Below, piece by piece: positions 44,633 to 64,000 of a stretch of 64,000 bases of DNA. The notes below the pieces were generated by a model that saw only the letters and a program-made list of their open reading frames with translations, was not told the origin of the DNA and did no database searches. The stretch spans positions 62,001 to 126,000 of the forward strand of contig JAFLBZ010000007.1 of the NCBI GenBank assembly GCA_017303715.1. Reading direction: 5' to 3'. Each line of letters opens with the position of its first letter. Position 1 is the stretch's first letter. The stretch comes from Rhodothermia bacterium (lineage in GTDB: Bacteria > Bacteroidota > Rhodothermia > Rhodothermales > UBA2364). The translations under genes and the position numbers were made by a program.

Positions 44633-47600
44633 CTAACGGTTAATGATCACACGAAGCGACTTTGCATAGTGTCCAGCTTCCATTCGTACAAAATACACCC
44701 CGTTTGGAATAGCAGTGTTATTAAGCACGACATGGTGTTCGCCCGCAACAAATTGGGTGTTTGACCGAATGGATTGCACTTTCCTCCCCAGTAGATCAAA
44801 GAGTGTCAAATTGACGATTTGCGGATTGGCGAGCCGGAAGACAATTTCGGCTTGGTAAGTGGCCGGATTTGGATACACCGCCAAAAGGTTGGTTTCGACG
44901 GGTATTGACTCGCCCTCGTTTGCAACACTCGTACCCGAAACCACAACATCTGCATAGTGGGTTCCTCCCACGCCATCGCCTACAACATAGGTAAATCCAT
45001 CAGCACCTTTAAAACTTGAGTTTGGTACATAACGCACCTGGCCATTTGCCTGCCATTCAACCACACCATGTTTTGCCCCAAAAACGCCGAGAATTTGCAA
45101 ACGGTCTGCATCTGGGTCAAGGTCATTGTCCAAGACATTGATCTGTGCAGAAGCATGATGATTCACCGCCAAACCATCTTGTATTGCAATAGGCGCGGTA
45201 TTGGTAGCGGGATTAAGTAGAAAAGCACGGGTCTTTCCGTTCAGTAGGCCATATCCCACAATTTGCCCATTCCGGTTTACATCTCTGGCTTCTTTCAACA
45301 CCCAACCAGTACCTGGTGGGATCAGAGCGTTTAAGTCAAAGGTTTTGTCATCCAACCAAAGCACCGCCCTTGTGCTTAAGGCGGCTGTGGTATAAACACG
45401 TTCCATCCTTGCCGAAAAAGCGGCCTTATGGGCCTGAATTTCGGGACCAATACGGTCGTTTTCTTGTTTATAAAGAGCGGCTCCGCTTAACGTTCCGGCG
45501 CCAACAATCCATCCCATATCGCTGATGCCATACGCCTCCGCAAATGTACCGGAAAGGGAGGTCAATGTGGTGGCTGTGGTTCCATTCCAACGCACGGCTT
45601 CCACCACTTCACCCGATTGTCGGCTCCCCACAATGACATCCAAATTATTGATCCGGTACGCCCGACTATCGCCCGCCAAGACCGTTTGGTTACGGAAGGC
45701 TTGTGCCGCTCCCGTCCCATCATAGATGAGACCCGTAACCACTCCGGCAAGGTTAATGTCGAATGCCTCGCTTTGTGGTTTTTCGCCGAAGGTATGGAGG
45801 TTTTCCATTTTGCCAGCAAACGAAAAGGCCTGCATCCGATTGTTGTTATCAAACGAAGCGCCAATCACTTTGCCGCTATTCGAGACCGCATTACCAATGC
45901 TAAAGCCGCCGCCAAGGTGACCCAGAAACTGTACGGGCGCCAATGGCTCGGCAGCACGCCAAAGAAATGCCTCATCAGTTCCGGCAGGAGAACGCATATA
46001 ACCCGTAATAATGCCTGTTTCACTTAAACCAAGCGCTTGTCCGACCGTATTTCCGATGGTGATTAAGCCATTGTTATTCCAGAAGAAAGCACGATCCTGC
46101 CCACTGGCATTTTTGGTAACGCCTACAATTTCTCCCGCATCATTAATGCCCCAAGCACGCGCCGCATTACCAAGAGAATTGACTTCCAAGAGACGATAGG
46201 TGATGGCCTGAACCTCCACCTGAACCAATGCCGAGGCTCTTCCACCTTTCCCATCCGAAATGGTGTATTCAAACCGATCTGTACCTAAAAAACCCCGATT
46301 GGGTGCATACGTAATGGTTTGATTGCTGTTGACAGTTGCGGTTCCATTCGAGGCGGCTATCCCTGACAATGTGACCAAGAGACGATCACCGTCCAAATCT
46401 TGGTCATTTTGCAGTACCGTTACGGTGACGGGCAAGTTCATATTGGTGGCGGCGGCATCGTTCAAAGCCACAGGCGCACGGTTGGGGTTTTGTTTTATCG
46501 AGAGTGCCACCGTAACCGTTTCGGAAAACGCCCCTGTTGCATCTTTTGCGCGATAGGTGAAGTTAATATCCCCAAAGAAGCCAGACGCAGGCACAAAAAG
46601 TACGCTTCCATCGGGCGAGAGCGTAAGGGTTCCCGAAGGTACATTGGCTTGCAAAACAGCCGTCAGCGGGTCGCCATCCACATCACGGTCATTGGCCAAT
46701 ACCCCTGGTGCAGGAATATTAATGGGTGTGGCAAATTCGGCCTCATACGCATCCGTTTGTGCAATGGGTGCATCATTCACCGGCGTGACCTCAACCGTAA
46801 CCAATACGGGCAATGAAAACAAATTTCCGGTATCTTGAACACGATAACGGAATTGATCGAAACCATTAAAATCTTTGTTTGGTTTATACTGAACTTGGCT
46901 GTTAAGCACCTCTACCGTACCATGCGTGGGCAATGTATCTAGGAGAATAGTAAGTGCATCCTCGTCTGGATCGCTGTCGTTTTGCAATACCAAAATAGCT
47001 ATGGGTGTATCCTCGGCGGTTTGTGTCCTATCTGCGGTTGCTATGGGCGCACTATTGCTGTTACGAATGTTAAGCGTGACTGTAGCCGTATTGGATTTTG
47101 CGCCAGATGGATCTACCGCAGCATAGGTAAAGGCATCTTCTCCGGTAACATTCCGGTTCGGGGTATAAACCAATTGTCCTTGCGTATTTGAAGAAAGTGT
47201 ACCTTTGGTTGGTTGCAAGATCACGCCAAAGGTTAACTGGTCTCCGTCAATATCGCGGTCATTGGCCAAGACATTGATCATCACCGGAGCGTTTTTATCG
47301 GTTATCGCAGCATCATTGACGGCAATAGGCGGATCGTTGACGGGTGTGACGCTTACATGAACGATGGCCGCGTTTGACGTAAGACCCTTCGGATCTGACG
47401 CCACATAGCCGAAGGTATCCGAACCATTAAAATCCGGCTTTGGCGTATAACGTAATAAGCCATTCTGTGTTTGAACAACACTTCCATTGGTGGGCTGGGT
47501 AATTGAAGTCACCTCCAGAGGATCACCATTAGGATCACGGTCATTGGCCAATACCTTAAAATCGCTCGCTTGGTCTTCTAATGTTGTAAACTGATCGTCC

Positions 47601-50600
47601 AAGGCCACAGGAGCACGGTTTGGATTTTGACCTACGTCTATGGTGACATTTACCGGAGTTGAACTTGCACCAGCCGCATCCCGAACGACATAGCGGAACG
47701 TAATGGCTCCAGAAAAGTCTTTTGCTGGCGTGAAGGTGAACCCCCCACTTTCCTGAAGGACAAAATCGCCACTTTCGGGTTTTTGCTCCAAAATGGCCAC
47801 CAATTTATCGCCTGTATCGGGATCATTATCGTTTTCTAAAACGCCGGGGCTTGCAATGGTTAGCGCTTGGTTAAAGGCCGTTTGGTAGGTGTCTTCCACC
47901 CCCTTTGGCGGATCATTGACAGGACGAACCACAAGGTTCACACGCGCCGTTCCTGACCTTTCACCTGCCGCATCTTGAACAACATACGTAAAGAAGTCCA
48001 GACCATTAAAGTTGCGAACCGGCGTATAGCGTAATGCGCCATTAGGTAATACGATCACCGAACCATTGGGCGGATTGGTAAAACTTGCCACACGTAAAAC
48101 ATCGTTCAAATCCACATCTACATCATTGCCCAAGACCGCAAGGTCTATCGCTACATCTTCATCGGTGGTGGATTCGTCATTTACGGCATTAGGTGGATCG
48201 TTGACGGGTAGGATGGTCATTCGTACCGTTGCAATATTGGAAAGATTGCCCACCCCATCTCGGACTTGGTAGGTAAATTGGTCACTGCCGTTAATGTCCG
48301 TATTTCCCACATAACGTAACGAACCTTCTTGATCAAGTAGGATTCCTCGTTGTGGTTGCGAAAGAACAATAACGGTTAATTCGTCGTTTTCAGGGTCTGT
48401 ATCGTTGGCCAACAAATTGAGCGTTACAAAAGTGTCTTCATTCACCACCACATTGTCATCTACTGCATTTGGTGGACGGTTTTGAGCGGCCTGTACTTGG
48501 AGGGTAACAGTTGCGGAATTGGATCTTGCACCATTCGCATCTTGCGCTTGATAGGTAAAAATAGCTGTACCGGAGAATGAAAGGGGTGTTGTAAAGCTAA
48601 AACCCCCATCGGGACGTAAAACCACATTACCTGTAGTCGAATTGGTGACCAGAACAGCCGTCAATACCGTTTGCTCTACATCTGTATCATTGGCCAAAAC
48701 GCCCGGTGTCAGAATGTCTAAGGTTGTGCCTGCGGTTGCCTGATACACATCGTTGTTTGCTATTGGTGCATCATTTACAGAGACAACCGTTATATCCACC
48801 GCGACCGTTACAGAAGTTGCGCCACTGGTGTCTGTAACACGATAAGTAAATTGGTCAGCCCCAAAGAAGTTCGCATTGGGTTTATACACCCGATTGTTTT
48901 GTTGGTCAAAGCCTAACGTTCCATTGGTGGGTTGTGAGACAACTCCCACCGTTAACACATCCCCATCCACGTCCGAGTCATTGGCCACAAGGTTCAGAAT
49001 AACTTGCGTATCTTCATTTGTCGAGTACCGATCGGGCTGAGCAATCGGTGGATCATTCACGGGTCGAATAGTAAGGGTCACGGTTGCAGCACCCGAAGTC
49101 GCTCCGGCGGGGTCTTTAGCACGATACGTAAAGGTATCTACCCCATTCACGTCTTTATTGGGTGTATAAACCAATTGTCCTTGTTGGTTGGTAGAGAGCA
49201 GCCCCTTGGCGGGCTGGGTCAAGACCTCAATCGTTAGCGGATCTTGGTTGGGATCGGTATCATTGGCCAGCAAGTTTAGGTTTACTGCGGTATCTTCGTC
49301 CGTAGTGATTTCGTCTTTGACAGCAACGGGTGGGCGATTGGGATTTGCCCCGACCGTGATGGTGACTTGTGCTACACCAGAACGCGCACCTGACGGATCT
49401 TTGGCTTGGTACGTAAAACCAACCTCGCCCGTAAAACCAGCTAAGGGCACAAAAGTAAACCCGCCATTTGCAAGCAAGGTAAGGGTTCCCGAACTTACAT
49501 TCGAGATCAACACGGCTTCCAAAACATCGCCATCCACATCCGAGTCATTTGCCAAAATGCCCGGCGCTTGCACATTCAGCGTGGTATTAAAATTGGTTTG
49601 ATAGGTATTTTCCGTAGCGATAGGTGCATCGTTAATCGGGCGAACGGTAATATTCACCTTAACGGCCTCCGAACGTGCGTTGTCTGTATCCTGCACCAAA
49701 TACATAAACTCATCCGACCCATTAAAATCAGGATTGGGCTTATAGATTCGTTGACCTTGTTGGTCAAAGGTAAAGGTTCCATTTTTAGGACTGGAGGCAA
49801 TAACGACCGTCAATGTACCTCCTTCAGCATCGGAGTCGTTTGCCAATAGGTCTAACAAAATGGAAACATCCTCATCGGTGGTATAATTATCGGCAGTTGC
49901 CACAGGCGGGTCATTTACTGGTGTAACTATAATCTTTACCTGTGCGGTATTAGAACCGGCCTGTTGTGGATCTTTTGCTTGATACGTAAAGTCATCTGCC
50001 CCAAAAAAGTCTTTATTGGGCGTATAAATCCAAAGATTATTGACCAACGCCAAGGCTCCATGTTTGGGTTGAGTGATGGGCTGTGCGGTCAGTACATCGC
50101 CATCCGGATCGGAATCATTAACGGTTAAATTGAGGGAGACAGGCACATCTTCGGGCGTCGTCACTTGGTCTTCTTTAGCTGATGGTACATCATTCACCGG
50201 CAGAATGATGATGGTTACGGTGGCATGATTTGACGTTAAGCCTTGTGGATCGGTGATGGAATAGGTAAAGGTATCACTTCCATTAAAGTCACCATTGGGC
50301 GTATAAACCCAAGCGCCTTGTTGATTTTTGGCGACAACACCATTTTTTGGCGTGTTTTCTATGGATACACGTTCGTCGCTTAAGGAAAAATCATTGTCTG
50401 GATCGGCATCATTTGCCGTCAACAAAAGCGTAACAGGGAAGTCTTCATCGGTTTCATAGGCATCATTACTTGCGATGGGCGCATCGTTTATGGGGCTGAT
50501 GGTAATGGTCACCGTAACTGTTTGAGACACTGCTCCAGAGAGGTCTTTTGCCCGATAGGTAAATTGGTCAAGGCCATTGATATTTGTATTGGGGTGGTAA

Positions 50601-53600
50601 AATCGTTGTCCTTGTTGGTTTAAGAAAACCTGTCCTTTTTTGGGTTGATCAACGATTTCCACTGTTATCAGGTCGCCATCCACATCCTTATCATTTCCGA
50701 GCAAATCCAACAGCACTTGGGTATCCTCATTAGTCACATATTGGTCATCGGCGGCAGTTGGGGCGTCATTTATGGGAATAATGGTAATGAAAACCAGCGC
50801 CTCGTTGGAGTTTGCCCCCGATGGATCCTTAGCCACATATACGAAAGCATCGTTCCCATTAAAGTCTTTGTTTGGGGTGTAAACAAGTTGTCCTTGTTGG
50901 TTTAAGGCAAGTGTACCATTTTTGGGAGAAGTAAAAGTGGCAATTGTAATCGGGTCTTGATTAGGGTCGGTATCATTGGCAATAAGATTAAGTACGAGTG
51001 GTGTATCCTCATTTGTGCTTACCCGATCCTCAACAGCAACGGGAGGTTGGTTGGGGTTTTCTCCTACAGTAATGACCACTCGCACAACATCTGAACCTGC
51101 ACCATCTGGGTCACGAGCAAAATACCCAAAGTTCATCTCTCCCGTAAAGTCTTTTGCAGGATCAAAGGTAAAGCCACCGTTAGGAAGTAAGGTTAATATG
51201 CCTGAAGCGGGGCTTCCCTCCAGAACTGCGGTTAGCTGGTCGCCATCCACATCTTCGTCGTTGTCCAAAATACCGGGGGCTGCCACAGTAAGTCGTTGGT
51301 TAAAGCCCGTTTGATATTGGTTTGGCCGTGCAAGTGGCGCATCATTTATAGGGGTAATCTTGACGAATACCGTTGCGAGTACCGAAAGTGCCCCAGTCGG
51401 ATCTTTTGCTTGATAGGTGAATTGGTCTTCACCATAATAATTGGCCTTGGGCGAATAAACATACTGCAACGTTTGTGGCGAAAAAGTAAATGTGCCATTT
51501 TGGGGCTGGCTTACCACCTGAATCGTTATCGGATCGTTGTCTAAATCCGAGTCATTTTTCAACAAATCCATAGTGATAGGGGTATCCTCGCTTGTTCCGA
51601 AGCCATCATCTTTGGCAACGGGTGCATCATTGACCGCCCTTATTGTTATCCGTACCGTTGCAAAACTGGAAACGGCGCCTTGACTGTCTTTAATGCGGTA
51701 GGTAAAGGTATCCGTGCCAAAAAAATTGGCATCGGGCAGATACACAAGTTGTTGTTGTTCGTTCAGGACAAACGTGCCATTTTTAGGGCTTGTTCGGTCG
51801 TCTAAGGAAAAGGTATGTTTGTCTGGGTCGAAATCGTTCGTTAATAACTGCGTCAATGGAAAGTCCGTATCTTCGTCTATCGTAACGTCATCATTTACAG
51901 CAACCGGAGGCTGGTTGGTTGGTGTAGTGGCATCAATACGCAAGAAAACGATTCCGCCTTCACGATTGATGCTCCATTGTTTCCCCTCTCCCAAAGGTGG
52001 CAAGGTGAAAGACGGTTTGTTAAAATTCAGGTTTTCCGCCTCAATAATGTTAAAAACCCGCCCAATCGGTTCATCTGCAACAGAGCCATCCACATCAACC
52101 ACATTCACCGAGCCGGCCAAATCTAAAGTCCCATTTACCTTAAACAAATCTTGTTGGTTGCTTGAAAGATCCATTTGAAGGTCAATATTATTAATGGATG
52201 CTGGATCACCCGACGGAACGATGGTAAGCGTTCCGAAACGGTTATAGCTCTGGTCATTGCCCGGCGAGAAGATACCGCGATTGGTTGTTGCACCAGAGAG
52301 TACGAGGTCTTGAGAACCCGCAAGGGTTGCATCAAATTCGTTTAGAAAAGTACCGGAGATTTCCAAACTTCCGCTAGATACGGTCAATATGCCCTTATTG
52401 GTGTAATCGGAAGCGATTTTACTGGAAGTCTGGGCTGTTCGGCTTGTACTTGATCGTAGTGGCTTCGTCGAGTTATTGGTTAGCAGGACATCCCAATTGC
52501 CTGTATTTTCTATTGCCCCACTTCTTTCTTTAATGGTTAGGATGTTTGCTTCTTCTTGAAAGACTACGCCTTGATTATGGAGGTCGCCATCACTCAAAAT
52601 CACTTCAGATCCCGGATCGAAGCGTGCCGTACCTGTAACCGTCCAATGCGCTTTATTTTCTAACTGTAGGGTTACGTTGCGGCGCACATAAGCGCTTCCT
52701 GTTGTCAAAAATTGGATCCCATTACCGAGATGATTCATGGGACGTGTTTCCCCTGAAAGATCGGCTAAGAAATTAGCATTTTCTCTTACTTCAAGCCGTC
52801 CACCCTGAATTCGACCAGCGTCCACATAAGCCCTTTGTGCGAGCAGGTCTTTTTCGAGAGAGAGTGTAGCATGTGAAACCGACAAATCATTTACAAACGT
52901 ATTTGTTTTTAAAAATACTTGGGCACCCTCATTAATGCTAAGCCTACCGATGTTAACATCAGCAGTCGCCTCAATAGAAGCGGAACCACCCACAAAAAAC
53001 ATCTGCCCTCCCACCCCAATAGAGGTGTTTTGTTTGGCTTCTTTTTTTGGAAGGTTGCTCCCCGCTTGAAAAACCGTAAAATTCCAGTTACCCAGATTAA
53101 AAAAGTAGTCTCCCGCTCCAGAAAAAGCGGCAAAAGACGTGATTTCATGTTTTTCGTGCGCCGCAGTCAAACTAAGAGTCCCTCCTTCAGCGACACTTAC
53201 CCCTGCATTTGTAAACCAATAAAATGGGTTTCCGAGTGTCTCCTGCATTTTCATTTCGAGTGATCCTTTTTCAACAAGGATGTCCCCAAACATGAGTACG
53301 CCAGACAATGTTGCCTTGCCGCCACCGGCTTTGGTCAACTGGCCTGATATATTGATAGAAGTTATAGGCTCCGAGGCCAAGTCAGCTTCAAAATAAACAT
53401 CCTGCTCACCACTGATGTGCATCGAACGGGAACCAAAGTACGTCGAAAGACTCCCACCCTGCATAATCACACTCATCGGGTTGTCTTGAGGAGAGATGAC
53501 ATTAAGATCACTTTGATATAAAAGGTTGCTTTTTATCAAAATGAGTTGATTACCATACATTTCACTTACACCAAAAACACTCATGCTCACCCCATCCAGC

Positions 53601-53962: not shown

Positions 53963-54375
53963 AGCGAGATTGGTAATAACGGAAGTACAAAGAGCAGCGT
54001 ATATGTGAAACAGGTCTTAAATCACCCTGATATGATTATTAAGTTGAATGGCAGCTAAGTGGAGCGCGTCCTGAAATATAATATAAAAAAAATTTAATGG
54101 TAAGTGTACTTTTGTTCCATTGAGTTTTTAAATTGTGCTTGGTAAATTTGAAAAATTGCTTGAAATATACCGCTAATAAAACCCTTTTTGCTGATCCATT
54201 TATCATCTTTCCTTTAGATAAATCATTGAAAACAAAGTGCTTAAAGCACGATTTCTAATAAATCAGAACCAGTTCTAAACGACAAGTCATTTGCGTTCGG
54301 GTTGGTTTATCTTCCGCTCTTCCGGTTTGTTCGGGTCATTTGTTTTACCTGAACAGGTTTCAAAAATTACTGCAC
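53963..54375. promoter_or_regulatory. Divergent control region of the two giant genes
   Basis: 413 bases between the two start codons, AT-rich, with no gene. It contains the palindrome GTGCTT-A-AAGCAC at 54238-54250 and an imperfect dyad AGAAC-CA-GTTCT at 54265-54276, which could be operator sites for either gene. Promoter boxes could not be placed securely. Confidence 0.4.
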
Positions 54376-57300
54376 ATGGTAAAATTCCCCTTCCGTCATT
54401 GGTCAGGACTTTTATTTTTCTTGCTTACAAGTCTTACCATCGGCATGTCTTCGGCTTTTGGTCAGGGTACAGTTCGTATCACCATTTCGGGTGTTCCGAC
54501 GGTTTTACAAACGCCTTATTTAGCAGAACTTCAACGCGATTACCAGATTGGGCGCTTCCCTGTCCAGTTGGTGTATAGCCATGCTTCGCGACAACCGGGG
54601 ACATTTCGGTTCCAGCTCACATTAACCTTAGATGGCCAAGAAATTGTGTCCGAGACCTCGCCGGATGTCACCATTCGGCCCGGAGTTTACACATATCGTA
54701 CTTTCAAGGATGCGCCGGAGATCATTTTTCCCGATTTAGCCACCCTGATCAACAAACTCCCTGCTGATCTGCAAACACGGATAAACCAAACCGGAACATT
54801 ACCGGAGGGTCGTTATGAACTAACCTTAGAAGCCACCTCGACCGATGAAGAGCAGTTTATCGTCTCCCCGCCCGCCACGATCTCCTTCACCGTTTCGTTC
54901 CCAGAAGCCCCTGTTTTATTGTCTCCTTCGGATGAAGCGGTTGTTTCTCAAGCCCAACCCATTTTTACGTGGTTACCTGTCATTGTTCCAGCCACCCAGA
55001 CCGTAGAATATCAATTTAGGATGGTGGAAATTTTACCCGGCCAAACCACCGACGAAGCCTTTCGCGGAAACAGAACCCAAGTAGAGTCTGCGTTCCAGCG
55101 GGGCACAACGTTTGTGTATGGCCGCGACTTACTGCCTTTGGGAGTAGGCAAGCGATATGCTTGGAACATTAAAGCACGAACGACCTCTGGTTCCCCCATT
55201 GCCCAAGACGGCCAAAGTGAAATCTACACCTTCTCATATGGCGTGGGTCATGCACCGGATGACGTTTTGGCGCAACTCAGGCAAATTGTTTTGGAACAAG
55301 GCTTGGCCACCCTCACTAATTTCTCCGATTTAGTACTGACAGATGAAGGAACGACTTGGTTATTGAATGGCCCGGCCACCCTGAACCTGACCTCGCCAAC
55401 CACCGAGCAAGTAACGGTTAACTTAGAAAATATTCGTCTTCAAAAAGGCTCATTGGACGTACCAGTATTGCTCGATGGCTCGGTTTCTGCGCGTTTACCT
55501 GGAGATTCTAGCTTATTACGTGGTTCTTCTGGTGGATTGTTTGATGTCCGCCTTCTCCGCTGGACGTTTGGGCGCGGCTTCACTGCCGAAGGCGCTATCC
55601 GGCTCCCCAATGGCAACCTAAGTCCGGCAACCGGAAGTTTACGGTTTTCACGGAGTGGTTTCTCCGGAGAACTCATCGCCGAAGGCTCCGGTAGCACTCT
55701 ATTGAGCTTAGGGAGTTCCAATCAGCAACTCATGTTGAACCGGATTCGTGCCCGTTTTCCAGAAAACCAACTGAGTGGCTCCGGACAATTCCGCCTTAAC
55801 AATACAACTTGCGCTTTAGATGATGTGGTTTTTACGAGTGGTGTACAAGACTTGTTGATTAATTGCGCCCTCAACCAATCCATCCAAGCCGTACCTGGAT
55901 CTAATTTGGTGCAATTACAATTAGACCGACTGCAAGGGCGGCTCCGCTTTGATGTGGGTGCTGGCAATATGACGCCCGAACTGTCGGTGAGTGGTCGCTT
56001 GGCGCTTCAGGTGTCGGATGGCTCTTGTGCAGCAAATCTTAATGCGGATATCACCGGAACGGGATGGCAGATCAGAGACCTTTCTCCAATTTGCAACCTG
56101 CCCAAATTGCCGTTGGGGCTTTTTGACCTCAACCTGAGCAATCTGCGTATTCCGCTTTTGGCCTATGATGCCGGACGCAACGAGTGGGATTTTGCGATTG
56201 ATTTAGATGGCCAATTTTCTGGTGGCATTTTGGGCGAGACACGACTGCCGCGCATCCCAAACATCCGTTTAACGCCATCAGGACTTACCTTCCCAAGTTA
56301 TGTCTTGGCTTCGGGTACATTTCCACCGATTCATCTCCCCAATTTAGGCCCATTACGCGGCCAATTAACGGCACTTCGTGTGCCCGTTTTCACCCTGAAT
56401 GCCTTTAGCCTTACCCCAGATGCATGGCAACCAGTGGTAATGGACTTTGCCTTCCGGCTTTCGGAGAGCCTTCCGTTGCCCGCTTGTATGCAAACGCCAC
56501 AATTTACCGTGCGTGATTTCCGTTTTAACGATGGCAATTTCATTATGGATTTAGGAAATCTCACGCCATCGGGCTGCGAATTGCCTTTAGGAATTGCCCA
56601 AATACGTCTGAACCAACTTAGTGGACAGGTGAATGGGCGTTTTGCGGGAGGACGGTTTAGCGCAACACCACAACTTTCTTTGGGCGGAGCTTTACGTTTT
56701 GGCGCACCGTTCACTTGTAGCGGCACCGAGGAAACCTTGCTTCCAGCCAACCTAACATTAGATTCCACAGGAAGACTTGTGGGACAGCTTGAAAACCTTG
56801 CACCTTCTTGCCCACTTAATCTGGGTTTTGGCAGTGGGACTTTAAGATCTGCCAACCTCATTCTGGGTAATACGGGGGGCACGCAAACCGCTCGTTTAGA
56901 GGCAAATGCGGGTTTAAACCTCAATCTCTTTGGTCAAAGTGGTGTAATGGCTGAAGGTTCGCTTAACCTAGACTTAATCACAGGCCGGTTCTCCACTTAT
57001 AACTTCAACCTCACATCGGGATTCACCCTTCCCTTCCCTTCGAGAGAAAGCCCCCTCTTCACCTTCCAGCTAAACAGTGGATTGAATTTGTCGCAAAACG
57101 GGCTTGCCTTATCCGGAAACCATGCCATACAAATTGGAACCGACAACATCCCTGTGCAATTTGATCGTGCAATGTTTGACTTAAACACGCTGCGCTTAAC
57201 ACAAGGACTTGGACAAATTGGCGGACGTGGCGCCGCTTTTCAGCTGGCCTATTTGATGAATGAAGGCCGATTTACCTCCTTCCCTTCTACAATGCCACTC

Positions 57301-60300
57301 CCCGACCAAAACCTATTTGGCATACGGGTAGAATCGGTAAACCTCACCCCAACTGGATTGGCCTTTTCGGGAAATGCAACCGGACAACTCCGGTTTGGAG
57401 GTACGACGTTTGGGACGGATCGGCTTCAACTACGGTTCACCGATTTCACCCTTGCCACGGATCCAATCGCCGTATCAAGGGGCAATACTGGCTTTTTTGT
57501 GGACGGGAGCCGAATTGCAACCTTTGATGCTTCAGGATTTCGCTTAGAACCCAGCGGTATTTTGGCTGCTTTACCATTGCCCACACATCTACCATTGCCC
57601 CGAACTGATTTAGCCTTTTTACGCTTACGAACAACCGAAGCGGGACCATTATTAATCAATACAGAGGATTTGGGTGGCGGTAGGTTACGTCTTTTCACCC
57701 GTTCTGGTTCGCCCATTCAATTGGTTTTAGCGGGATTGGCAAATGGTTCTACCCCACCTTCCATCGGCGCTACCTTCGACTTGGTCGTCAATAATGGTGA
57801 CTTTGCGATTCAAGAAGTCCGCGCCTTCAATGTAACGACTTCGGTAGATGTCAACCGTGCGTTATTCGGAAGTTCACCCTTACAACTTACCCGTTTTATT
57901 CTTTCCGGTGTTGGTTCGGCCCTTGCGCTTCATGCGGATGTACAGATGGCCTTGCCTACCGACCTCTCCCCCGATCCTTTGGTAGTCCGGAACCTCAGGT
58001 TGAGCGAGCGTGGATTTGAAGAAGCCGAGGTTTTGACAACGCTAAACCTGCCCGACCGTACCACCGGAACACTTCGCGGACGGTTATCTGCAAATGGGAC
58101 AGGTCTTAGCGGGTTTTTGGCCTTAGAACGTGCTTTTTCGCTTGGCGCAAGTCCTGTGCAACTTTCCCTTTCTGGACTTAGGTTACAATTTCCTTCCACA
58201 CAACTTACGGGAAGCGGGGTGCTTCGATTTTTCGGTGGAAGACAATCTTGTGCGGTAACAGATTTTGTTCTTGGTGGCACTGCTGGCATGGGGAACATTG
58301 ACTGCCGGATTGACGAAGCCCTCCAATTGGTTCCAAATAGCAACCTCGCCACCCTGAACTTAGGACGGATAACCGGAAGAATCGGATATACAGGCGGACG
58401 ATTTACGCACGATTTACAATTTGCCTCAAGTCTGGGTCTTGACATAATGAATGGTCCACGTTGTGGTGCAAACTTAAACCTACGTTTTACAGACACTTCT
58501 GGACTAAACGCTTCCGATTTCCGGCCAGATTGCTCTGAGACGCCGCGCCTAAATCTGGGCGCATTAGAAGCACTTTTTGCCAATTTGCGCGTACCTTCTT
58601 TGCAGTTTAACAACCTCACTGGACGATTTGATTTTGAGCTACAAACCGATCTTAAGTTGGCGGGTGCCTTCTTAGGTGCGCAAGGACTGCCATCCCTCCC
58701 CGGTATTCGGATTCGGCCAACAGGCATTACATTCCCCGATGTCAATTTTAATGCGACGCAACTTGCAGAGCTAAGACCCTTTGATTTTGGTGGTGTACAA
58801 GCACGGGTAAATGCCTTTTCCATGCGCGGTTTCACGTTCGATTGGTTTGGGCATACGCCCGACTCGCCGGGTAATTGGGATGCACAAGTTGGCCTGAACA
58901 TCAACCTTGGCAATGTTACCGAGATCCCGAGATGCCTCCAGAGTACAGCGTTTCCCTTAAGCCTAAATGTTTCTGGAAGTCGCCTAAATGCTACCTTACC
59001 CGTGCAAACCTTGCGCGACTGTAGCCTCCCACTGGGCCCAGCAGCTTTGGAATTAACCGGCATTGGCGGAAGTATAACCGCCGCTTATGAATCGGGACGT
59101 TACAACCTTGCACCTATATTCTCGCTCAATGGAAACCTGCGGCTCTCAGATACCTTTACGTGTACCACAAGTTCTACCATGCCTCTCGGAACTGCCGCCC
59201 TTAACCTCTTGCCAAATGGCTTGGTTCTCGGCAATGTCACCGCCAACATTCCAGAAACCTGCTCCTTACAATTCGGCCCATTCCGCGCATCTGCGGGACG
59301 CACCACCCTGATCCTTGACCGCTCAGGCGACAACCAGACGGCCACCTTAGACGGTATTGCTCGCTTAGTGATTGGGGATAGTGCCCCTTTTGATGGCACA
59401 TATAACCTTAATTTGTTTACAGGACGACTCAATACTTATCGGTTTGCCCTAAGTGCCCCTTTCGTTCTAATGGTTCCACCAGAAAGTCCGGTATTCAGGT
59501 TTAACATTACCGCTGGCGAACTTTCCGACGCTGGATTCAACATTAATGGCATCAACACTTTAGAGGTTGGTGGATCGCAAATCCGTTCGACCTTCGACAA
59601 TGTGCGGCTCAATCTTTCCACCTTGGCCATTGAGAGCGGGCAAATCCAGATTGCTTCCGGCATGGGCTTAGAAGCGGGCATTGGTTCTGGGGGTGCATTA
59701 CGTTTCAACGCAATACATGAGACCCAACCCGCCTCGGTCAATCCGGGCTTGATCTTGCGGCTTGGCTCCACCATCACGATAGACCGGAGCGGGCTTGGCC
59801 TTGGCGGACGTGGTTCTGCCGCGCTCAACTACCGCCCTGAAGGTGGCAAGGTTTTGAATTTACCACGCTTGGATGTGGATTTTGGGTCTGGTTTTTCGTT
59901 TAATTTTAGCCCCTTCAACGTAGGGACGGGACGGGCAAACCTCTTGGACGGAACCGCCATCATGGGCTATATAGACCGCGCTGGCATACAAATTAATCCG
60001 GGTTATCTCGTGAGCCGCTTATTGCCCGAACGATTGCCGCTTCCATCCGAAACCGTAGCCTATTTGCAATTGCGTAGAGGCGGAACAGCTTTGGTAGAGG
60101 CCACCTCCGAGGCCGGAGGGCGTGTTCGATTAGCCATCAAACGCGGTGAAACGGTAAACTTGGTGTTTCCAGCATTGGCTCAAGGTGGCCGGACACCAGA
60201 GGTTCCTGTAACTTTTACCGACGTTGTGTTCGATCCAGCCCTTTTACAAATAACGGGCGGAAGTATCACGGCGGATGTTTCGGGGCTATCAAGTTTTGTC

Positions 60301-63300
60301 TTGCCCGATCAATTCCCCATGCAACTGCGCAACATCTTATATGGCGAACGCACGGTTGCTGGACGTACCATTCGCGGCTTATTCCTCACTGGTAACCTCC
60401 GCATGTTGGGCCAGAATTGGGATGGCGATTGTCCAGCCGCTTTTCAGGTCTTAGAAACCGGACGACTTTCTGGAAGTTTGACATGCACAGGCATCAATCA
60501 AAATATTCCGCTTCCGGGTGTTGACAATTTTGCCTCGCTACGCATCACAGGGCTAAATGGCGCACTTGACTTAGCCCTGCCCGGCATTTCTGCTGGAGCA
60601 ACCACCGTGAATTTTGGATTAGAAGGCCGAATTAACCTTAACAGCGGCGGAAGCGAAATGGCAAGACTTGGCTTTACCGCTACACTAAACAATGGTATAT
60701 TTACCCTCAATACCACTGCCGAGGGGCGACAACCAGAAGGTTTACCTCGTTTGGATTTTGGGCCATTTGGCATGGGCATTACCCAATTACGCAACCTTAG
60801 CCTAAGCATAAATAGCGGCTCATTGCGGTTCGGTGTAGGTGCAGACTTAAATTTCCGCATTCGGATGCAAGATGGCTCGTTCGTGAACATTCCCGCTCAT
60901 GACGCCTATTTTGGAACGGACGGTTTCCGCCTGCCCTCTATTCAACTAACGGGACGAACCTTGGCCGATCTGGGCATTGCCCCCATCACCTTAGGGCCGA
61001 TTCAGATCCTGCCTACTCAAATTCGCATCCCGTCCCTTAATCTTAGCAGCCTTACCACCTTAAGTGCGGATCTCTTCGCCCAACTTCTTCCAACGTTTGA
61101 CCTAAACTTCAGGATGCCCTCCGTCTCTGGTTTGTCCACCGATCTTGCCACGACCGATATTCCCTTCAATAATGTCACCTTCCGAAATGGTATCTTTTCG
61201 GGAACCTTGGGCAGTTTCGACTTGCCCGGAAGCGGTATTGTGGTTCCTTTTGGAACGGATGCCGGCCTACGGGTGCGGCAAATTATGGCACGGTTCTTCG
61301 AGGATGCTGGACGACAAGGCGTGGATGTACGATTTAATGGCGGGCTTCAGTTCCCGTCTGCTTTTGGAGATACCCGATCTTGTATTGCATCCCTTTCGGC
61401 GGCACTATCAACAACGGGCGATATTTCGGCGACCGCTACGGGCGTTGCCCCTTGTGGGACACTCACTTTTGGCCCCTTAAGTTTACGATTTACCCGCTCG
61501 GACTTGGCGCTCTCGTTGGGCACTTCCACTTCCGCGACTTTAGAAGGTGCTGCCGAGGCAACCCTCAGAACTCCGGATGGTCAAGTACTAACCGCCACCG
61601 GCGATTTGGGTGTAAACCTGTTGAACGCAACGCTTACCCGCTCCAATATCATACTCAATGGCCCATTCGTGTGGCAAATTCCATCCGACCGTGCCTTACT
61701 TTCCTTTACCATCAATAGTGCACGCCTCAACAATACCGGACTTACCTTCGACGGGGCCGGACAATTGGACGTTCCCGGTGCCCCCGTTGGTGTTCGGTTT
61801 AATACCGCACAATTTGGGTTTGATGGCCGGATGAATGGCGGAAGTGTGTCCTTCACTTCTGGTTTTGGGTTTGATATTCCCTTAGGCGAAGGAACCCAAT
61901 GGCGTTTGGTGGCAGCAAGTGCCGCAGATGCCGTCGGAAATTTCTTCCGCCTCAACTTGCCCAGTGGCCTTAGCTTGGATCCAAGTGGGTTATTGGTCAA
62001 TGGAACCGCCTCGGCACGCATTAATTATGGAACGCAGCGATTTAATGAAAGCCAGCTTAGTCTCAATTTTGCAGGATTCCGCATAGGGTTTTCTCCATTT
62101 GGCATTTCAGATGGCCGTGTTGATCTAAATACCCAAGACGCAGGAAGAACCGTCCGAATTGCCTATTTTGACCGTGACGGCTTCCATCCAGACAATCTTT
62201 TGGCCGCACTTCCGCTTCCTATACGGCTTCCCCTTCCAGATGCCCAACTTGCTTATTTGCAACTTCGCGACACTGGTGGAACGCTCCTGATCGAAACCGC
62301 CGACGAAGGTAGTGGGCGCTTGGCCGTCAGAACACGTCCGGGTTCACCGATCAATCTTGTTATTCCAGCACTACGTGGTTCTAACCCCACCGACCCTACC
62401 TTGCCCGTACAGTTCGAGTTTGTCCTTAATACAGGCGATTTCACCGTTCGGGAAGTGCGGAGTTTTGTTGCGAATGGCGCTCCAGCTTTAAATGCCGCCT
62501 TATTTGGTTCAGGGAGTCCGATCAATTTGCAACGGTTTGACCTCACCGGAAATGGGGTTGGATTGGCACTTCTAGCAGATTTAACCGTTACCTTGCCCAA
62601 TGCCGTATCTTCCGATCCCCTTTCCATTCGTGGTATTCGCATTAGTCAACTTGGCTTTGAAGAGGCAAACATTAATGCCACACTGAACATGCCCGGTGGC
62701 GGTGGGCCAGCCAATGTAACTGGATTGTTGCGCGGTGGATCGGGCGGGCTGGTAGGAGAACTTTTGGCCCGTGCAGATGGGGTTCGCCCAATTCTCCGCA
62801 TCGGCACGCAGCCCATCGAAGCCGCCCTGACGGAACTGCGCATCCAATTCCCCGACGTCCGCATTTCCGGAAATGGAGGCGTTTCTTTGATGAATGGAAC
62901 CCCAACTTGCGCCCTTAACAACTTTACGCTTTCCGGCGAAACCAACAACCTAAACTTCTCTTGCTCGCTTGCACAACGCCTCCAATTGGTTCCCGGAAGC
63001 GCTTTGGCCACACTCGGCGTAGCCTCCCTCTCTGGCGACCTCACCTTTAATGCCCGCACCAATGCTTTTGGATACAACCTGAATGCCTCTGGCGATCTGG
63101 CGATGCAAGTCGAGGGAATGGCGGCTTGTGGTGCAACTTTAGACCTAAGCATCTCCCACGTTACGGGATTTGCTGCACGAAACGTCCGCCCAAATTGTAG
63201 TGGAACCCCACAGTTGAACCTTGGCTTTTTGAATATGGGTTTCAGAAACCTGAACCTTTCCACCTTAGCATTCGATCCTGTTTCCCGACGTTTCTCTTTT

Positions 63301-64000
63301 GAACTGGCGATGGATGCCAACCTCACCGTTCCCACGTTCAATAACCTTCAGTTGCCCCAAATACCCATCCGGCTAAGCGAGTCTGGAATCCGGTTTAACC
63401 CTTTTAATTACAATGAAACCGACCTCACGGGATTGGGTGCATTTAATCTTGGGTTTGCTCAAGCAAGGATCACCGGATTGCGTTTGGCGGCTCCATTTAC
63501 CTTTAATTGGTTTACGCACGACGGGACGACCGCCGGAAATTGGGATTTTGCCTTTGATCTACGGATGAACCTCCCCAGCGGCCCTGAATTTCCGGCTTGC
63601 CTCCAAACTTCAGGTATTAACCTAAACAATTTGCGATTCTCCGGTGCAGGTGTCAGTTTCAACTCGGCCATTTCTGCTATTGGAAGTGGTGGATGCAATA
63701 TCCCTATGGGGCCTGCTACCTTGAATGTGAGCGAATTAAGTGCCCAACTCGATGGCTCGTTCAACAACCGTTCCTTCAACCTCGCACCAACCATTCAAAT
63801 TGCGGGCGGCATCAACCTTGGAGCGCCCTTTACTTGCTCTGGCCCACCACGTCCACTCAGTTTAGGGACAACCCGCCTCAATATTGGCCCCGGCGGATTG
63901 ATTCAAGGGCGGATTGAGAACCTCGCGCCCTCGTGCCCCCTTCAATTCGGAACCTATGCGGCTTCGGTTAGCCGTGCGAACCTCATTTTTGGCGTTTTGG
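54376..64000 (+). CDS. Giant secreted Cys-paired super-repeat protein, 3' end beyond window
   Basis: An open frame of 3208 codons without a stop, running off the window end. The ATG at 54376 gives a signal peptide (LLFFLLTSLTIGMSS, cleavage after AFG). Residues about 30-290 are beta-sandwich, with a fibronectin-like segment (APVLLSPSDEAVVSQAQPIF) similar in style to TANFOR-type N-termini. From about residue 440 onward come four large super-repeats, all strand-rich (L-x-L-x-G patterns) and with paired cysteines. The alternating strands recall AsmA/TamB-like or adhesin folds, but I recognise no family. The reading frame is supported by unbroken length and by repeat conservation at the protein level. 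Confidence 0.88.
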   Translation, partial: MVKFPFRHWSGLLFFLLTSLTIGMSSAFGQGTVRITISGVPTVLQTPYLAELQRDYQIGRFPVQLVYSHASRQPGTFRFQLTLTLDGQEIVSETSPDVTIRPGVYTYRTFKDAPEIIFPDLATLINKLPADLQTRINQTGTLPEGRYELTLEATSTDEEQFIVSPPATISFTVSFPEAPVLLSPSDEAVVSQAQPIFTWLPVIVPATQTVEYQFRMVEILPGQTTDEAFRGNRTQVESAFQRGTTFVYGRDLLPLGVGKRYAWNIKARTTSGSPIAQDGQSEIYTFSYGVGHAPDDVLAQLRQIVLEQGLATLTNFSDLVLTDEGTTWLLNGPATLNLTSPTTEQVTVNLENIRLQKGSLDVPVLLDGSVSARLPGDSSLLRGSSGGLFDVRLLRWTFGRGFTAEGAIRLPNGNLSPATGSLRFSRSGFSGELIAEGSGSTLLSLGSSNQQLMLNRIRARFPENQLSGSGQFRLNNTTCALDDVVFTSGVQDLLINCALNQSIQAVPGSNLVQLQLDRLQGRLRFDVGAGNMTPELSVSGRLALQVSDGSCAANLNADITGTGWQIRDLSPICNLPKLPLGLFDLNLSNLRIPLLAYDAGRNEWDFAIDLDGQFSGGILGETRLPRIPNIRLTPSGLTFPSYVLASGTFPPIHLPNLGPLRGQLTALRVPVFTLNAFSLTPDAWQPVVMDFAFRLSESLPLPACMQTPQFTVRDFRFNDGNFIMDLGNLTPSGCELPLGIAQIRLNQLSGQVNGRFAGGRFSATPQLSLGGALRFGAPFTCSGTEETLLPANLTLDSTGRLVGQLENLAPSCPLNLGFGSGTLRSANLILGNTGGTQTARLEANAGLNLNLFGQSGVMAEGSLNLDLITGRFSTYNFNLTSGFTLPFPSRESPLFTFQLNSGLNLSQNGLALSGNHAIQIGTDNIPVQFDRAMFDLNTLRLTQGLGQIGGRGAAFQLAYLMNEGRFTSFPSTMPLPDQNLFGIRVESVNLTPTGLAFSGNATGQLRFGGTTFGTDRLQLRFTDFTLATDPIAVSRGNTGFFVDGSRIATFDASGFRLEPSGILAALPLPTHLPLPRTDLAFLRLRTTEAGPLLINTEDLGGGRLRLFTRSGSPIQLVLAGLANGSTPPSIGATFDLVVNNGDFAIQEVRAFNVTTSVDVNRALFGSSPLQLTRFILSGVGSALALHADVQMALPTDLSPDPLVVRNLRLSERGFEEAEVLTTLNLPDRTTGTLRGRLSANGTGLSGFLALERAFSLGASPVQLSLSGLRLQFPSTQLTGSGVLRFFGGRQSCAVTDFVLGGTAGMGNIDCRIDEALQLVPNSNLATLNLGRITGRIGYTGGRFTHDLQFASSLGLDIMNGPRCGANLNLRFTDTSGLNASDFRPDCSETPRLNLGALEALFANLRVPSLQFNNLTGRFDFELQTDLKLAGAFLGAQGLPSLPGIRIRPTGITFPDVNFNATQLAELRPFDFGGVQARVNAFSMRGFTFDWFGHTPDSPGNWDAQVGLNINLGNVTEIPRCLQSTAFPLSLNVSGSRLNATLPVQTLRDCSLPLGPAALELTGIGGSITAAYESGRYNLAPIFSLNGNLRLSDTFTCTTSSTMPLGTAALNLLPNGLVLGNVTANIPETCSLQFGPFRASAGRTTLILDRSGDNQTATLDGIARLVIGDSAPFDGTYNLNLFTGRLNTYRFALSAPFVLMVPPESPVFRFNITAGELSDAGFNINGINTLEVGGSQIRSTFDNVRLNLSTLAIESGQIQIASGMGLEAGIGSGGALRFNAIHETQPASVNPGLILRLGSTITIDRSGLGLGGRGSAALNYRPEGGKVLNLPRLDVDFGSGFSFNFSPFNVGTGRANLLDGTAIMGYIDRAGIQINPGYLVSRLLPERLPLPSETVAYLQLRRGGTALVEATSEAGGRVRLAIKRGETVNLVFPALAQGGRTPEVPVTFTDVVFDPALLQITGGSITADVSGLSSFVLPDQFPMQLRNILYGERTVAGRTIRGLFLTGNLRMLGQNWDGDCPAAFQVLETGRLSGSLTCTGINQNIPLPGVDNFASLRITGLNGALDLALPGISAGATTVNFGLEGRINLNSGGSEMARLGFTATLNNGIFTLNTTAEGRQPEGLPRLDFGPFGMGITQLRNLSLSINSGSLRFGVGADLNFRIRMQDGSFVNIPAHDAYFGTDGFRLPSIQLTGRTLADLGIAPITLGPIQILPTQIRIPSLNLSSLTTLSADLFAQLLPTFDLNFRMPSVSGLSTDLATTDIPFNNVTFRNGIFSGTLGSFDLPGSGIVVPFGTDAGLRVRQIMARFFEDAGRQGVDVRFNGGLQFPSAFGDTRSCIASLSAALSTTGDISATATGVAPCGTLTFGPLSLRFTRSDLALSLGTSTSATLEGAAEATLRTPDGQVLTATGDLGVNLLNATLTRSNIILNGPFVWQIPSDRALLSFTINSARLNNTGLTFDGAGQLDVPGAPVGVRFNTAQFGFDGRMNGGSVSFTSGFGFDIPLGEGTQWRLVAASAADAVGNFFRLNLPSGLSLDPSGLLVNGTASARINYGTQRFNESQLSLNFAGFRIGFSPFGISDGRVDLNTQDAGRTVRIAYFDRDGFHPDNLLAALPLPIRLPLPDAQLAYLQLRDTGGTLLIETADEGSGRLAVRTRPGSPINLVIPALRGSNPTDPTLPVQFEFVLNTGDFTVREVRSFVANGAPALNAALFGSGSPINLQRFDLTGNGVGLALLADLTVTLPNAVSSDPLSIRGIRISQLGFEEANINATLNMPGGGGPANVTGLLRGGSGGLVGELLARADGVRPILRIGTQPIEAALTELRIQFPDVRISGNGGVSLMNGTPTCALNNFTLSGETNNLNFSCSLAQRLQLVPGSALATLGVASLSGDLTFNARTNAFGYNLNASGDLAMQVEGMAACGATLDLSISHVTGFAARNVRPNCSGTPQLNLGFLNMGFRNLNLSTLAFDPVSRRFSFELAMDANLTVPTFNNLQLPQIPIRLSESGIRFNPFNYNETDLTGLGAFNLGFAQARITGLRLAAPFTFNWFTHDGTTAGNWDFAFDLRMNLPSGPEFPACLQTSGINLNNLRFSGAGVSFNSAISAIGSGGCNIPMGPATLNVSELSAQLDGSFNNRSFNLAPTIQIAGGINLGAPFTCSGPPRPLSLGTTRLNIGPGGLIQGRIENLAPSCPLQFGTYAASVSRANLIFGVL
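55705..58137 (+). repeat. Super-repeat unit A of the giant plus-strand protein
   Basis: About 811 residues. Opens with SLGSSNQQLMLNRIRARFPE. Four cysteine pairs, by codon start: 55810/55864 (17 residues between), 56026/56092, 56485/56575, 56716/56809. The tail has the LAALPLPTHLPLPRTDLAFL block near 57545. Confidence 0.85.
58138..60300 (+). repeat. Super-repeat unit B of the giant plus-strand protein
   Basis: About 721 residues. Opens with SLGASPVQLSLSGLRLQFP. Cysteine pairs at 58249/58303 (17 between), 58462/58531, 58933/59020, 59161/59260. Tail block ERLPLPSETVAYLQL near 60030. Confidence 0.85.
60301..62796 (+). repeat. Super-repeat unit C, lacking cysteine pairs 2 and 3
   Basis: About 832 residues, the most divergent unit. 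Pair 1 at 60430/60484 (17 between) and pair 4 at 61381/61453 are kept. Pairs 2 and 3 are each missing both cysteines (positions near 60661-60730 and 61120-61215). Tail block ALPLPIRLPLPDAQLAYLQL near 62200. Confidence 0.8.
62797..64000 (+). repeat. Super-repeat unit D, cut by the window end
   Basis: At least 401 residues. Opens with RIGTQPIEAALTELRIQFP. All four pairs present: 62908/62962 (17 between), 63127/63196, 63598/63694, 63835/63934. The close likeness to unit A (LAPSCPL in pair 4 of both) suggests A and D are nearer to each other than to C. Confidence 0.85.

Follow-up and report, generated by a model that had tools for sequence, protein, structure and literature searches.

The giant gene G and the adjoining adhesin gene A are co-inherited, physically linked, and gained and lost together in related genomes. 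They lie in the window, the whole 64,000-nucleotide stretch of DNA that was analyzed (G000:C7:62001-126000; Table 1). We put the chance that the A/G pair is part of a co-inherited cell-envelope surface-structure module at roughly even (about 0.5). The gene set concerned has a central protein of 2,000–6,400 aa, occurs in several phyla and has no Pfam or NCBIfam family. Its linkage also lets partners be predicted, among them an unlinked barrel gene that may be the missing partner of the window's giant.

Table 1 Features of the A/G locus, in window coordinates
Feature	Position	Strand	Remarks
Adhesin A (P0001)	44633..53962	-	9,330 bp, 3109 aa; tandem-95/Big_9 cadherin-like repeats, HAF, T9SS type A domain
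T9SS type A C-terminal sorting domain of A (TIGR04183 / PF18962)	44642..44878	-	residues 3029-3107
Best HAF repeat stretch of A (TIGR02913)	46052..46156	-	residues 2603-2637
Cadherin-like / tandem-95 repeat array of A	46211..51661	-	approximate limits; best stretches at residues 768-2584
Divergent intergenic region A/G	53963..54375	.	413 bp; three genomes of the genus share conserved blocks
Bacteroidota-type promoter-like site (TTG-N20-TAAATTTG)	54120..54150	+	towards G; relaxed pattern, presumed consensus
Palindrome GTGCTTWAAGCAC	54237..54249	.	between conserved promoter-like block and G start
Giant gene G, window part	54376..64000	+	continues to window-equivalent of 73533; about 6385 aa from ATG 54376
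Signal-peptide-like start and ~280-aa N-terminal domain of G	54415..55257	+	model A7
~735-aa beta repeat unit U1 of G	55702..57891	+	residues 455-1184
~735-aa beta repeat unit U2 of G	58135..60330	+	residues 1266-1997; modeled as 58078-60369
~735-aa beta repeat unit U3 of G	60376..62529	+	residues 2013-2730
~735-aa beta repeat unit U4 of G	62794..64000, on to 64992 past the window	+	residues 2819-3551
~735-aa beta repeat unit U5 of G	65029-67176, outside the window	+	residues 3564-4279
Conserved C-terminal region of G	67363-70119, outside the window	+	residues 4342-5260

Co-inheritance and linkage of A and G

Among 80 related genomes, the C-terminal region of G occurs in 12, an A-type gene in 11 and both in 10 (hypergeometric probability 4e-10, a value that ignores phylogeny and stems from unequal search thresholds, E 1e-3 for G and E 1e-40 for A). 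The A query, consisting of the last 755 residues of P0001 with cadherin, HAF and sorting-domain sequence, was searched in 10 genomes with a giant and in the 80 relatives, and each A-positive genome has one full-length-type match. Genomes with one gene of the pair belong to family f2: G without A in G003 and G050, which are fragmented assemblies of 490 and 610 contigs, and A without G in G017 (620 contigs). In f12, and likewise in f13, a single genome carries both genes and all other genomes of the family carry neither, a pattern that argues against simple descent. G is missing from 68 of the 80 relatives, and the module is therefore accessory.

The preliminary description of this DNA proposed looking for the two genes side by side in related genomes, and they are indeed found together, since A adjoins the giant cassette in all nine genomes in which its neighborhood can be read. 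Eight of these show A beside the cassette (the window's genome G000, G001, G002, G008, G013, G009, G021 and G060); in G030 the tail of the giant, the FN3 gene F and A lie together on one contig end. The A frame runs off a small contig in G017 and G027, both of which are outside the nine readable cases. One shared divergent control region, also part of that description, is not supported as a general property of the pair. A and G are divergent in five genomes, namely three of one genus together with G008 and G013, there with an intervening barrel gene, and same-strand in four (G009, G021, G030 and G060). Linkage, not a shared promoter, is therefore the constant.

In the window itself the two starts lie back to back, exactly 413 bp apart from the A start to ATG 54376, just as had been described. 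Within the genus this gap is diverged save for three or four blocks, among them a stretch of about 20 identical bases and the palindrome of Table 1. Each of the three ~4.3-Mb genomes has the palindrome at a single site, which always lies in the A/G gap, and a control pattern has 0 sites in the same three genomes. The Bacteroidota-type promoter-like pattern, built on what we take to be the consensus, fits towards G only and, of the three genomes compared, in the window's only. A generic sigma-70 scan of the gap gave 1 site versus 1.6 expected, which is not above chance. A shared A/G promoter was considered and rejected, with the generic scan at chance and the Bacteroidota-type pattern one-directional and confined to the window's genome. 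Read from the sequence, the features of the gap are compatible with locus-specific control and fall short of showing that control is shared.

The adhesin A

A had been called a 9.3-kb cadherin/HAF T9SS cargo, and its reading frame bears out each element of that label, with 21 Big_9/tandem-95 stretches and 2 HAF stretches (Pfam, NCBIfam) and a sorting domain above the cut-offs of both collections (37.7 bits versus 23 in NCBIfam, 38.1 versus 27 in Pfam). The N-terminus is hydrophobic, ends in ..PPPLFAQ and is, as judged by eye, signal-peptide-like. The T9SS translocon SprA (TIGR04189) is encoded in the same genome (1613 bits at G000:C3), as are 81 type A sorting domains over the cut-off, 80 besides that of A. 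By its domain make-up A would be classed as an ordinary though large T9SS type A adhesin; it is like other such adhesins with tandem-95/cadherin repeats in its repeat domains, HAF and TIGR04183, with no difference that matters, and the novelty lies in its constant linkage to the giant cassette. Outside the window, the genome has three further giant frames with T9SS sorting domains, of 11584, 10542 and 7605 aa (G000:C18, G000:C9 and G000:C14).

Anatomy and distribution of the giant

G, of which the preliminary description could see at least 9.6 kb, runs past the window's end to a full 19.2 kb on contig G000:C7, encoding 6397 aa from a TTG at 54340 or about 6385 aa from the more likely ATG start. 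Its counterparts in the two other genomes of the genus have 6383 and 6381 aa. The protein is poor in lysine (0.6%), and leucine, glycine and phenylalanine are abundant. The signal-peptide-like start is of the Sec type, judged by eye, and the N-terminal domain may be of the TANFOR type. Five beta units with mutual identity of mostly 25–45% precede the conserved C-terminal region, after which comes sub-threshold FN3-like sequence. The protein had been called highly repetitive, which stands for these five diverged units and not for the DNA, where Tandem Repeats Finder detected no tandem repeat array in 40000-64000. Of the 14 giants that have a unit of more than 350 profile positions, 3 have five units, 5 have two, and 6 have one or part of one, some of these six being from cut contigs. 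In one genome (G060:C9, L053/L054) a gene of its own, of 406 aa and 3′ of the giant, FN3 and barrel genes, encodes the N-terminal domain; domain and rod can therefore be split.

The first half of G matches no Pfam or NCBIfam family at E 0.001, and at E 1 both halves give sub-threshold matches only. Whether the second protein too ends in a T9SS sorting domain beyond the window had been put forward as a check, and the C-terminal half of G has no such domain, with no match to TIGR04183 or TIGR04131 at E ≤ 1. A profile of the C-terminal region finds 33 loci in named genomes, whose records are labeled Bacteroidetes, Balneolaceae, Ignavibacteria, Melioribacteraceae, Chlorobiota and Calditrichota, as well as Zixibacteria, WOR-3, Latescibacterota, Deferribacteres and one Spirochaete. 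Of 247 genomes sampled from the phylum, 15 have the C-terminal region, 112 the barrel family and 75 the N-terminal domain. The core cassette is found without A in other lineages, and A is therefore an addition, not an essential part. The giant family has no match in Pfam (2025) or NCBIfam (2026), and a description of the cassette of G and its partners was not found in the open-access literature searched. A viral origin of the giant was rejected, as none of the 22 pattern matches in viral_contigs proved to be a relative.

Partners in the giant cassette

The giant cassette has G and F as its core, with B a usual and T a frequent member. F is an FN3 protein of ~670 aa encoded directly 3′ of the giant; in the window's genome, 27 bp lie between the G stop (L002:19533) and F (19561). 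It is the next gene after the giant in 23 of the 24 loci, out of 33, that have at least 500 bp after the giant's stop (the exception is L063). All 13 full-length F matches (at least 413 bits, from 10 genomes) adjoin a giant, and weaker matches (105–160 bits) are mostly F genes of shorter paralogues.

B, present in 17 of the 33 loci, is an outer-membrane-barrel-like protein of ~580 aa with an aromatic, beta-signal-like C-terminal tail (e.g. ..YEHRF). Its matches to OMP families are sub-threshold (PF13505, 12.2 bits versus 28.7; PF14905, 12.0 versus 27). A Pfam search with three barrels at E ≤ 1 gave weak OMP matches or DUF4402 only and none to the PorP/SprF family, and B relatives, one of ~600 aa and two longer, have no NCBIfam match at E ≤ 0.1. 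T, a TPR protein, occurs in 12 of 16 loci examined, in three of the 12 on the opposite strand. Gene order varies between G-F-T-B, G-F-B and B-G-F(-T). The barrel and F of G008 were placed from family matches, and antisense frames overlay both genes.

The barrel also accompanies the N-terminal domain of the giant. An N-domain lies within 12 kb of 70 of 80 strong B matches and within 15.2 kb of two more, and 77 of 101 N-domain matches have a strong B within 12 kb. These counts use 80 of 83 barrel rows, down to E 7.1e-35, with weaker rows excluded from both the B and the N-domain lists; the barrel rows left out are one from G293, the second piece of its gene, and two from G298, both fragments of 228 aa. 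At 20 B loci picked as being without the giant's C-terminal profile, an N-domain neighbor is present in 14 and absent in 6. The well-supported main groups of the B tree are also those of the tree built from the C-terminal region of the giant, with some open forks.

Structural models of G

AlphaFold2 models unit U2 (47 rows) as all-beta, with strands of up to 18 residues and a mean pLDDT of 86.9. The C-terminal region, modeled for the UBA2364 orthologue of G (29 rows; pLDDT 78.8, pTM 0.49), ends in a helical segment, and its last ~400 residues include about 22 regular antiparallel strands, each ~12 residues long. Strands are amphipathic in both models, the observed value being reached by 0 of 1000 shuffles, and in the last 22 strands of the C-terminal model the hydrophobic face is 74% hydrophobic and 3% charged. 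Among known structures, the C-terminal model matches the middle region of ApoB-100 best (Z 13.8, rmsd 9.5 over 316 residues). Porins give Z of about 12–13 with rmsd of about 13–15, to be read against the model's low pTM, and further matches include SlpA, LptD (Foldseek) and ushers. Across all these matches TM-scores are at most 0.27, and rmsd over the aligned region is mostly 8–25 Å. These matches would fit an amphipathic beta sheet, open or closed.

A PDB fold for the unit was sought and rejected, with no match at E 1e-3 or better and VIA as the best hit (Z 7.4, rmsd 28). By sequence, profile A2 gave one chance-level PDB match and profile A3 none. An identity of the C-terminal region with DUF6603 was likewise set aside, as 1 of 29 members only matches (E 0.011) and the term was not found in the open-access literature searched. 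No TamB/AsmA family match (Pfam, E ≤ 0.05) occurs in the 47 unit members or the 29 C-terminal members, and one of the 47 unit members has a weak match to the phospholipid-binding LmeA (E 0.015).

A proposed surface structure and its alternatives

From the gene linkage and co-occurrence, the domain make-up, the T9SS signal, SprA and the amphipathic strands of the models, we infer a localization, a mode of assembly, an adhesive role and all physical contacts of the module as follows. G, F, T and B would leave the cytoplasm via Sec, and the outer membrane would then have B and the C-terminal strand region of G within it or attached to it. With one to five copies of its repeat unit, G would form a long all-beta rod or tape. 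A would be exported by the T9SS, of which SprA is present, and at the surface would join G and F in an adhesive or matrix structure. A giant T9SS adhesin of the P0001 type would have been added to the core module in the window's order. Counting against this reading are the missing B beside the giant in the window's genus, the sub-threshold OMP matches of B, the pTM of 0.49 and large rmsd of the C-terminal model, the core cassettes that have no A and the many relatives that lack G.

The same amphipathic strands allow a different function, which we regard as possible though doubtful. G may be a conduit for lipids or hydrophobic molecules, a repeating beta-groove or belt, hydrophobic on its inner face, like those of TamB/AsmA, LptD-type proteins or ApoB, with B as its outer-membrane port. 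The length of the strands and the apolar face of the last 22 speak for a conduit, as do ApoB-100 as the closest C-terminal match, LptD among the Foldseek matches and the single weak LmeA match. It is weakened by the lack of the TamB/AsmA Pfam family throughout the units and C-terminal regions and of any PDB match for the unit model at the threshold given above; five units would also seem longer than a periplasm needs, and the FN3 partners and the linked adhesin suggest the surface instead. Going further, and in our judgment unlikely, the giant would found a new class of modular amphipathic beta-tape proteins of 1–5 units, in which a groove located at the outer membrane or beyond it carries lipid or other hydrophobic cargo, with G, F, B and T as a multi-gene envelope machine in several phyla that, in the window's order, is coupled to a giant adhesin of the T9SS. 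If either a surface structure or a lipid conduit is true, the cassette would be an envelope machine that is absent from Pfam and NCBIfam, and would help to explain the persistence of some giant genes.

B, F, T and G might together be an export or anchoring apparatus for large surface proteins like A, comparable to SprF/PorP and SprB, an idea made attractive by the outer-membrane-like B next to the giant, by the linked A, and by the frequent genetic linkage of type B cargo and PorP/SprF shuttles in Flavobacterium johnsoniae (available part of PMC12618676). However, A has a type A domain, and PorV handles all type A cargo according to the same part of that source; the genome's 80 other type A domains are set against only four cassettes found, and the cassette also exists without A, which together make such an apparatus decidedly unlikely. 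Still further from our preference is a neighborhood without function, a giant-gene hot spot in which unrelated surface genes come together by chance. The genome does have other giant T9SS frames (the three listed with A above), and with its 81 type A domains a sorting-domain gene near any locus is therefore not rare. Chance assembly nevertheless appears very improbable and is disfavored, as several families have the same cadherin, HAF and sorting-domain architecture next to G, each genome with a single full-length-type copy, and F stands beside G in 13 of 13 cases.

Comparison with known systems

G resembles the TamB/AsmA-like beta-groove proteins in its long, all-beta, amphipathic repeats rich in leucine and glycine. 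It differs from them in having no sequence-family match, in a Sec-type start (by eye) with no evident inner-membrane anchor, and in its sub-threshold FN3-like end and helical segment; it is presumably also several times longer than TamB. With large outer-membrane barrels and the beta belt of ApoB-100 the C-terminal model shares its antiparallel strands, about 22 in number, but the matches have the low TM-scores and large rmsd given above and come from a model with a pTM of 0.49.

Very large surface proteins encoded by consecutive genes are also described for Giant1-5 of Apilactobacillus kunkeei (available part of PMC12863079), a likeness by description only, with a lactic acid bacterium as host. 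A parallel is found in another T9SS organism, F. johnsoniae, where a PorP/SprF barrel is the partner of large type B cargo and, as here, a very large surface protein, SprB, is genetically linked to an outer-membrane barrel, SprF (available parts of PMC9143113 and PMC12618676). Unlike SprB, the giant here has no T9SS domain; unlike SprF, the barrel has no PorP/SprF model match, and the cassette has FN3 and TPR partners and a range beyond Bacteroidota. By analogy, the two systems may follow a similar logic with different proteins.

The missing barrel and related loci

No B gene lies near the window's giant or its G001 and G002 counterparts. All three genomes of the genus nevertheless encode B four times: three of the copies adjoin other giants, and the fourth, at G000:C3, G001:C13 and G002:C50, has no giant nearby (the copy of the window's genome is L088, G000:C3:42750-44345). 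The unlinked B of G000:C3 groups with barrels of Rhodothermia/Balneolia-like loci and not with the three linked paralogues, at a fork that is open. Possibly it is the partner that the window's giant has lost from its side, a reading with which the tree, open fork included, is consistent. The genomes with an unlinked B are exactly those in which the window-type giant has no barrel beside it.

Four cassettes were found in the window's genome. The three paralogous ones, on G000:C1, C2 and C20, encode large proteins 4013, 2117 and 3715 aa in length, and every one of them includes a separate barrel gene and FN3 gene. More distantly, a B relative of ~900 aa that is common in Bacteroidota adjoins a FecR protein and a CHASE2-adenylate cyclase at one locus (L110, G251:C1:690001-705000), and in several other genomes barrels of this ~900-aa type adjoin proteins of ~360–410 aa, nearly all of which is made up by the N-terminal domain known from the giant.
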